Part shown: positions 39,068 through 47,328 of the stretch, piece after piece
Layout: the number at the start of each line of letters is the position of its first letter
How positions within the stretch are numbered: the stretch's first letter is position 1
From: Amphibacillus jilinensis Y1
GTDB lineage: Bacteria; Bacillota; Bacilli; Bacillales; Amphibacillaceae
DNA length: 64,000 bases
Direction: 5' to 3'
Assembly (NCBI RefSeq): GCF_000306965.1
Contig: NZ_JH976441.1
Location: forward strand, 67,188 to 131,187
Notes under the pieces: generated by a model
Database searches by the model: none
Told to the model about the DNA's origin: nothing
The model's input: the letters and a program-made list of their open reading frames with translations, nothing else
Translations under genes and position numbers: made by a program

Positions 39068-39154
39068 GATTCTTTCATCCTCTCAAGTAACTTTGTTAGA
39101 TAACCAAACAAGAAGATTGCATTGCTTCTGTAACTAGTTTAGCATACATACTAA

Positions 39155-39258
39155 CACTTTCGTATAACCTTAAAGATTGGTTTAAGGGTCTCTACTAAGA
39201 AACCGCAAATTTCTAGCTACGAAAATATGTATAACAGCATATTTTCGTGGCTTTTTTT
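39155..39258 (+). promoter_or_regulatory. Variant purine riboswitch with overlapping terminator (predicted ON switch)
   Basis: P1 TTTCGTA (39158-39164) with TACGAAA (39218-39224); P2 CCTTAA with TTAAGG; L2 GATTGG; J2/3 GTCTCTAC (39188-39195); P3 AGAAA with TTTCT; L3 CCGCAAA; J3/1 with C at 39217, the position that selects guanine-type ligands. These match purine aptamers. Position 25-45 is a C-G pair instead of U-A, and the base before C74 is G rather than A. A terminator formed by GCTACGAAAATATG (39216-39229) and CATATTTTCGTGGC (39238-39251) plus T7 contains the P1 3' strand, so P1 and terminator exclude each other. Confidence 0.82.
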
Positions 39259-39291
39259 GTATCTTAAAACTAGTATCAAAGGAGGAATAAA

Positions 39292-40629
39292 ATGCGAATT
39301 TTAATAAAAAATGCTGAAATTATCACGATGAATTTTGAAGAAGACATTATTTATGGTGACCTCTTGATTGAGGATGATCGAATTGTTGGACTTGGCTCTG
39401 ATTTGGAAAATACTGATTATGATAAATGGATAGATGCTAGTGGCAAAACGATTATCCCGGGTTTTGTGCAAACCCATATCCATCTTTGTCAGACCGTTTT
39501 TCGTGGCCAAGCTGATGATCTTGAACTAATGGATTGGCTCAAACAAAAAATCTGGCCGCTTGAGGCCGCACATGATCAAGAATCGATTTACTACTCTGCT
39601 ATGCTGGGCTTAGGTGAGCTGATCCAAAGCGGTACGACTACCATTGTCGATATGGAGACTGTCCATCATACCGATTTTGCCTTTCAAGCACTAGCTAAGA
39701 GTGGTATTCGCGCGCTTTCTGGTAAAGTAATGATGGACAAAGGCAACCAAGTTCCACTCCCCTTGCAAGAAAAAACAAGCGATTCGATTCAACAAAGTGT
39801 TGATTTATTAGAAAAATGGCATAACTATGACCACGGTAGATTACAATATGCTTTTTCACCACGATTTGTCGTATCCTGTACTGAAGCCTTATTAACTGAA
39901 GTTAAGCGACTTTCTGATCATTACGATGTGATGGTTCATACCCATGCCTCGGAAAATAAAGGCGAGATTGATATTGTCCAGCGGGAAACAGGAATGCGCA
40001 ATGTCGTCTACTTGGATCACTTAGGCTTAGCTAACAAGCGTCTCATTTTAGCACATTGCATTTGGCTTGATCAGCTTGAAAAACAAATCATACGCGAAAA
40101 AGGCGTCCATGTTAGTCACTGTCCCGCTTCTAATCTAAAGCTAGCCTCGGGTATTGCTGATATCCCTGAGATGCACGGCCACGGCACCTGTCTCAGTCTT
40201 GGCGCAGACGGCGCTCCCTGCAACAACAATTTAGATATGTTTAACGACATGCGTCTGGCTGCCCTGATTCAAAAGCCCGTCCATGGCCCAACAGCAATGC
40301 CTGCCAAAGCCGTCTTTAAGATGGCAACCATTGGTGGAGCAAAAGCAATTGGGCAAGACCATGATATTGGAAGTTTAGAGGTTGGCAAGAAAGCAGACTT
40401 AGCCATTCTTGATCTGAATAATTTTCACACTTACCCTTCGGTGGAGGTTGACCCGATTTCACGGGTTGTTTACAGTGCCACGAGGGCTGACGTTGAGACA
40501 ACGATTATCAATGGTAAGATCGTGATGGAAAATCGTCACATGCTTACGATTGATAAGGCGGATGTTTTACAACAAGCGAATCAATCAATTCGTCAGCTAG
40601 TGAAGCGGTCAAAACAATTCCTTAAATAA
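39292..40629 (+). CDS. Amidohydrolase/deaminase of the TRZ/ATZ family, riboswitch controlled
   Basis: 445 residues. Metal-dependent deaminase or hydrolase: HxH ligands at 62 and 64 (FVQTHIHLCQ), a His in MVHTHASENKGE, a His in LAHCIWLD and the Asp in LGADGAPCNNNLDM. The DLELMDWLKQKIWPLEA segment is shared by 5'-methylthioadenosine/S-adenosylhomocysteine deaminases, 8-oxoguanine deaminases and related enzymes. The purine riboswitch upstream suggests a purine base or nucleoside substrate (inference). AAAGGAGG precedes the ATG. Confidence 0.88.
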   Translation: MRILIKNAEIITMNFEEDIIYGDLLIEDDRIVGLGSDLENTDYDKWIDASGKTIIPGFVQTHIHLCQTVFRGQADDLELMDWLKQKIWPLEAAHDQESIYYSAMLGLGELIQSGTTTIVDMETVHHTDFAFQALAKSGIRALSGKVMMDKGNQVPLPLQEKTSDSIQQSVDLLEKWHNYDHGRLQYAFSPRFVVSCTEALLTEVKRLSDHYDVMVHTHASENKGEIDIVQRETGMRNVVYLDHLGLANKRLILAHCIWLDQLEKQIIREKGVHVSHCPASNLKLASGIADIPEMHGHGTCLSLGADGAPCNNNLDMFNDMRLAALIQKPVHGPTAMPAKAVFKMATIGGAKAIGQDHDIGSLEVGKKADLAILDLNNFHTYPSVEVDPISRVVYSATRADVETTIINGKIVMENRHMLTIDKADVLQQANQSIRQLVKRSKQFLK

Positions 40630-45533: not shown

Positions 45534-46868
<1,335 letters not shown>

Positions 46869-46989: not shown

Positions 46990-47225
46990 AAAAAAAGAGC
47001 AAAACACATCCCAAAAGGGACGAGTTTTACTCTCGCGGTACCACCCTCGTTGCAATCTATCATTGCCACTTGAATTGATATCGATGCACTATGTTGCACC
47101 GCCTACACCTTAAGTTGTGTATAGGAAGCTCAAGAACGTAATTCACGCTAATACTATGCTCTGACTTGCACCATCCGTCAGCTCTCTTAAACCAGGGAAT
47201 ATTAACATTACTTCAATCTATCATC
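46990..47225 (-). promoter_or_regulatory. Tyrosine T-box riboswitch of tyrS
   Basis: On the minus strand: Stem I start AGAGAGCTGACGGATGGTGC (47187-47168), specifier region GAATTAC with TAC for tyrosine (47140-47138), the T-box core AGGGTGGTACCGCG (47047-47034), and a terminator GAGTAAAACTCGTCCC / GGGATGTGTTTTGCTC followed by a T-run (47032-46990). Uncharged tRNA-Tyr should stabilise the antiterminator and allow tyrS transcription. Confidence 0.95.
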
Positions 47226-47328
47226 ACTAAAATATTTACTGTTGTGTTACATTATTATCATAATTTCATGACAATCGCAAGCTTTTTTTAAAAAATGTCG
47301 GCTCAGATACTTCTTAATTGCTGAAATA

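Follow-up and report, generated by a model that had tools for sequence, protein, structure and literature searches.

A predicted guanine ON riboswitch upstream of a probable guanine deaminase gene in Amphibacillus jilinensis Y1

Introduction

Guanine-I riboswitches (RF00167) have a three-stem junction with L2-L3 loops, carry U22, U47, U51 and C74, control purine genes at the level of transcription and usually act as OFF switches. The leader of the gene at 39292 of the window (the whole stretch of 64,000 nucleotides analysed here, 67188-131187 of contig 8) is alike in architecture, in these four bases and in its mode of control. It differs in having G73, a 6-nt L2, a weakened 54-72 pair and a catabolic target, and its predicted output is ON. 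In the B. subtilis pbuE adenine riboswitch, whose output is also ON, a P1 held by the ligand and a terminator compete for the P1 3' strand. The 39292 leader is likened to pbuE by layout, from general knowledge and without a comparison of the sequences; its C74 is of the guanine type and its target is an enzyme gene, whereas the target of pbuE is an efflux pump.

Two variants of the purine aptamer, guanine-II and xanthine-II, are predicted in PMC9295807 to be ON switches in Bacillota. There, guanine-II has a one-nucleotide insertion in J2/3 and lies mostly upstream of PRT genes, and xanthine-II combines U51G with insertions in J2/3 and J3/1 and lies upstream of purine-degradation genes. Following these definitions, the 39292 leader was assigned to neither variant: its J2/3 counts 8 nt, without an insertion, and its target is a deaminase, unlike guanine-II, and U51 is kept beside a J2/3 of normal length, unlike xanthine-II.

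The closest described enzyme is the E. coli GuaD-type guanine deaminase (TIGR02967; PDB 6ohb), which resembles the 39292 protein in the motifs HxHxxQ, PRF, HTHxxEN and GKVMMD, although the two share only about 30% identity in the alignment and the 39292 protein falls below the TIGR02967 cut-off, in a different subfamily (NF005557). Furthermore, a rice amidohydrolase resembling SAH deaminases is a guanine deaminase that is inactive on 5'-deoxyadenosine, MTA and SAH (PMC8360030); it is a precedent by its likeness to SAH deaminases, not by an established membership of NF005557.

We propose that the locus combines a guanine-sensing ON riboswitch with a guanine deaminase, so that guanine would induce its own breakdown. 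We give this reading, which is built on sequence comparison, folding and gene context, a probability of about 0.72. Switch and enzyme are parts of known kinds. A literature search found no description of a riboswitch-deaminase association, nor of catabolic targets (guanine deaminase, xanthine dehydrogenase) for guanine ON switches.

Results and Discussion

The Aptamer and Its Ligand

The features of the locus are collected in Table 1. The initial annotation had described a three-stem purine aptamer and proposed scoring it against the covariance model of the family. The RF00167 match is significant and well above the gathering cut-off, with 65.0 bits against 37 (E-value 4.5e-9 when the whole window is searched, 1.4e-11 when 201 bases are), RF00167 being the best-scoring model of its clan for this aptamer. 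Covariation corroborates the architecture. Among the deaminase-linked aptamers 79 of the 84 cells of P2 and 62 of the 72 cells of P3 are paired, more than in every shuffle, which does not hold for P1 alone; in the set of 25 aptamers P1, P2 and P3 are all above every shuffle. The pair counts were taken from parsed motifs because P3 was misaligned in the MAFFT alignment, and the motif parser misread J3/1 in two loci (L007 and L029).

Table 1. Features of the 39292 leader and gene (window coordinates).
Feature	Position	Strand	Remark
Purine aptamer	39140..39239	+	RF00167 match, model 1-102
P1 5' strand UUUCGUA	39158..39164	+	
P1 3' strand UACGAAA	39218..39224	+	Common to terminator 5' arm
P2-L2, 7 pairs including C-G 25-45, 6-nt loop GAUUGG	39168..39188, bounds approximate	+	
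J2/3 GUCUCUAC with U47, C48, U51, A52, C53	39189..39196, bounds approximate	+	
P3-L3, 5-pair stem AGAAA/UUUCU, loop CCGCAAA	39197..39215, bounds approximate	+	
J3/1, G39216 = G73, C39217 = C74	39216..39217	+	A39215 precedes; both pair in terminator
Intrinsic terminator, stem 39215-39230/39237-39252, loop 39231-39236, U tract to ~39258	39215..39258	+	
Ribosome-binding site AAAGGAGG	39278..39285, approximate	+	Lies outside switching hairpin
Amidohydrolase, 445 aa, NF005557 ("5'-deoxyadenosine deaminase")	39292..40629	+	Guanine-deaminase active-site signature

In the sequence and the alignment, U22, U47, U51 and C74, through which guanine aptamers contact their ligand, are all intact, and C74, the specificity base that contacts the ligand, is of the guanine type. 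Taken on its sequence, the leader is most likely a guanine-type purine riboswitch of ordinary purine architecture. All the core departures listed in the initial annotation are truly present, but the suggestion that they mark a different ligand was not supported. The C-G at 25-45 is an ordinary pair change in P2, C48 is frequent among A73 aptamers as well, and an L2 one base below the usual length recurs in relatives and in the ade leader of the window genome itself; since each of these three changes is either widespread or compensatory among standard aptamers, they were rejected as signs of an altered ligand. G73, for its part, occurs before guaA and purE.

At position 73, which is not a ligand contact, the usual A is replaced by G. 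The G73 pattern gave 79 matches, one or two of which may be due to chance, in 64 of the 400 class genomes and 19 of 146 genera, and the A73 pattern was found in 281 of the same genomes and in 118 genera. Neither G73 nor the short L2 is the majority state, and a possible effect of either on binding is counted against the guanine reading. Only 21 of the 79 G73 matches keep C54, so G73 accompanies a changed base in P3, and the closing 54-72 region of P3 is weakened in the 39292 leader. G73 aptamers are found upstream of guaA, of purE and of purine permeases, genes whose aptamers would be expected to bind guanine; their presence in guaA and purE leaders makes G73 a recurrent variation that does not exclude an aptamer from the guanine riboswitches. 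The combination of G73 and a changed 54-72 pair is probably a natural sub-pattern in which guanine binding is kept. The idea that G73 is confined to ON switches was rejected, since the G73 leaders of guaA, purE and some permeases have separate terminators and thus look OFF.

Where the G73 aptamer is combined with an ON-type terminator, the gene behind it encodes the deaminase, a xanthine dehydrogenase subunit or the FAD oxidoreductase. It is conceivable, though in our view rather unlikely, that the G73/altered-54-72 aptamers are a natural sub-class of guanine riboswitches whose specificity has shifted, for instance towards a modified guanine or towards finer discrimination, and whose terminators compete for C74, inducing a purine-degradation regulon. 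That regulon, an equally doubtful part of the same reading, would comprise the deaminase, xanthine dehydrogenase, the permease and the uncharacterised FAD oxidoreductase. We also consider it improbable that the ligand has switched to 8-oxoguanine, N2-methylated guanine, xanthine or hypoxanthine and that the enzyme degrades that compound. Such a switch would fit the distinct sub-pattern that G73 forms with the altered 54-72 pair, the ligand changes known among purine aptamers (PMC9295807) and the activity of the wider guanine deaminase cluster on 8-oxoguanine or N2,N2-dimethylguanine (PMC13054789). However, the four contact bases are unaltered, guaA and purE are preceded by G73 aptamers as well, and the protein shares PRF and GKVMMD with E. 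coli GuaD; the entry 7ww2, an 8-oxoguanine deaminase, reads APCSPF instead.

The Enzyme

The 39292 protein scores 720.6 bits with NF005557 (cut-off 522), 409 bits with the N-ethylammeline chlorohydrolase models and 257 bits with the TIGR02967 guanine deaminase model, under the cut-off of 375; its overall similarity is greater to SAH/MTA deaminases and the N-ethylammeline chlorohydrolase models than to TIGR02967. The active site reads HIHLCQ at 62-67, GKVMMD from 144, PRF at 190-192 and HTHASEN from 216. A Gln after strand beta-1 binds and stabilises the exocyclic oxygen, and only the guanine deaminase cluster has it (PMC12828455). Here Q67 takes that place and is found together with the catalytic residues E221, H255 and D306, as expected of a guanine deaminase active site. 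When E. coli GuaD is aligned, HxHxxQ, GKVMMD, GRLxYAxxPRF and HTHxxEN are in common, and HxHxxQ and PRF were present in every orthologue locus read, including those of Desulfovibrio and of a Heimdallarchaeota MAG. An SAH/MTA-type relative has HTHILM, with Met, and APHSPY at the corresponding motifs, and the solved adenosine-type relatives have Met and no Arg-Phe at the signature sites. The protein is thus most likely a guanine deaminase, which would convert guanine to xanthine and ammonia. These residues argue against 5'-deoxyadenosine as its substrate, and the name attached to NF005557, 5'-deoxyadenosine deaminase, has probably been propagated in error.

There is a small chance that the switch senses guanine as a general signal of purine excess and that the enzyme really deaminates 5'-deoxyadenosine (or MTA/SAH), as its equivalog score and an overall sequence closer to SAH deaminases than to GuaD would have it. 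The Gln and the Arg-Phe match guanine deaminases and not the adenosine-type relatives, however, and in one genome (G057) an adenosine-type amidohydrolase sits behind a U74, adenine-type, aptamer. Aptamer and enzyme specificity therefore agree in both cases, U74 going with the adenosine-type enzyme and C74 with the guanine-type enzyme at 39292.

The window genome (3.84 Mb) has no other recognisable guanine deaminase: no TIGR02967 member was found elsewhere in it, and its PF00383 (cytidine-deaminase-fold) genes are only TadA, ComEB, a RibD-length frame and a Cdd-length frame, the last two assigned solely by frame length. Neither a xanthine dehydrogenase nor a clear XPRTase was found in the window genome, and both results are counted against the preferred reading of guanine-induced guanine breakdown.

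That reading ties the ligand of a riboswitch to the probable substrate of the enzyme that it controls, and the regulation of the gene, the residues of the active site and the neighbouring genes all speak for guanine and against the NF005557 name. If it is true, a gene is misnamed in 56 of the 400 sampled class genomes and in more beyond them, and guanine ON switches gain guanine deaminase and xanthine dehydrogenase as catabolic targets.

The Terminator and the Direction of Control

The terminator has a 16-pair stem followed by a U run, with a folding energy of -21.5 kcal/mol (z -7.8); none of 200 shuffles was as stable, and one terminator was found against 0.1 expected. As the initial annotation had stated, its 5' strand holds the entire P1 3' strand, and it takes up C74 (C39217) and G73 (G39216) as well. 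When successive transcript lengths were folded, P1 was seen up to ~39244 and the terminator won from ~39248, and no antiterminator was seen in the leader by sequence or by folding. Since P1 and the terminator are mutually exclusive and no antiterminator was seen, a P1 held by the ligand should block termination. The ON switch claimed in the initial annotation is thereby supported by the overlap and the folding series, at the level of a prediction, and the leader is most likely a transcriptional ON switch. With guanine absent, the nascent RNA would refold, J3/1 and the P1 3' strand forming the 5' arm of the terminator, and transcription would stop. With guanine present, C74 would pair with the ligand, P1 would be held, the terminator arm would be unavailable and the gene would be read.

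The deaminase gene was found in the 56 class genomes mentioned above, and a genome of the same genus has an orthologue at 94% identity. A purine aptamer is present at 13 of these 56 genes, 44 loci having been read. It lies directly upstream of the deaminase in Amphibacillus, Metabacillus, Alkalihalobacillus, Fictibacillus, Neobacillus and four further genera; in Thermoflavimicrobium the aptamer precedes a permease and the deaminase follows it. The pairing of riboswitch and deaminase thus extends over about nine genera, mostly with the terminator over P1. This layout was seen in 16 of 20 deaminase leaders, the four without a recognisable ON terminator being those of Fictibacillus (two), Neobacillus and L031. 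It was also seen in all tested leaders of xanthine dehydrogenase operons and of the FAD oxidoreductase, whereas purE, guaA and several permease leaders have a separate later terminator instead. Some parts of the leader are alike across distant genera, which suggests that these are not all independent events. That the 39292 element is degenerate, or an OFF switch, is very unlikely. A73G and a shorter L2 and P3 might weaken binding, and some deaminase leaders miss the terminator, but the RF00167 score and the covariation, the terminator-P1 overlap kept in distant genera and the lack of any visible antiterminator that could yield an OFF output all argue against it.

Related Loci

The initial annotation had taken an ON switch before an amidohydrolase as a sign of substrate-induced purine catabolism, and the target fits that proposal. 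In two genomes of the same family (G020 and G021) the region behind the deaminase gene holds a purine aptamer together with a xanthine dehydrogenase operon and an AzgA-like permease.

Besides the 39292 leader, four purine aptamers are present in the window genome, preceding genes that by sequence are guaA-like, of purE type, AzgA-like permease and adenine-deaminase-like. The guaA leader was read as having a separate terminator and antiterminator and was therefore counted as OFF, against the ON-type call of the script. No NCBIfam model matched the AzgA-like permease, whose aptamer has U at position 73 (L003). The adenine-deaminase-like gene reaches 376 bits where the cut-off is 472, its frame being cut by the end of the locus, and lies behind a C74, guanine-type, aptamer (L004), an unexpected pairing.

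Elsewhere, the xanthine dehydrogenase operons at L097, L098, L148 and L151 each lie behind a purine aptamer whose terminator is of the ON type, and the last two loci have a second, opposite-facing purine aptamer before a purine permease. At L057 and L099:2871-4178 an amidohydrolase resembling MTA/SAH deaminases lies behind a U74, adenine-type, aptamer that has an ON-type terminator. ON-type G73 aptamers were also seen before an FAD-dependent oxidoreductase (MKKYDVIVVGAGPAGIFTCYEL...) at L115, L116, L122, L139-L142, L152 and L154; this aptamer-linked protein is uncharacterised and occurs in several large-genome genera of Bacillota. Within the window itself, a T-box leader (47013-47233, minus strand, 105.9 bits) lies upstream of a gene at 45534-46820 that resembles tyrosyl-tRNA synthetase.
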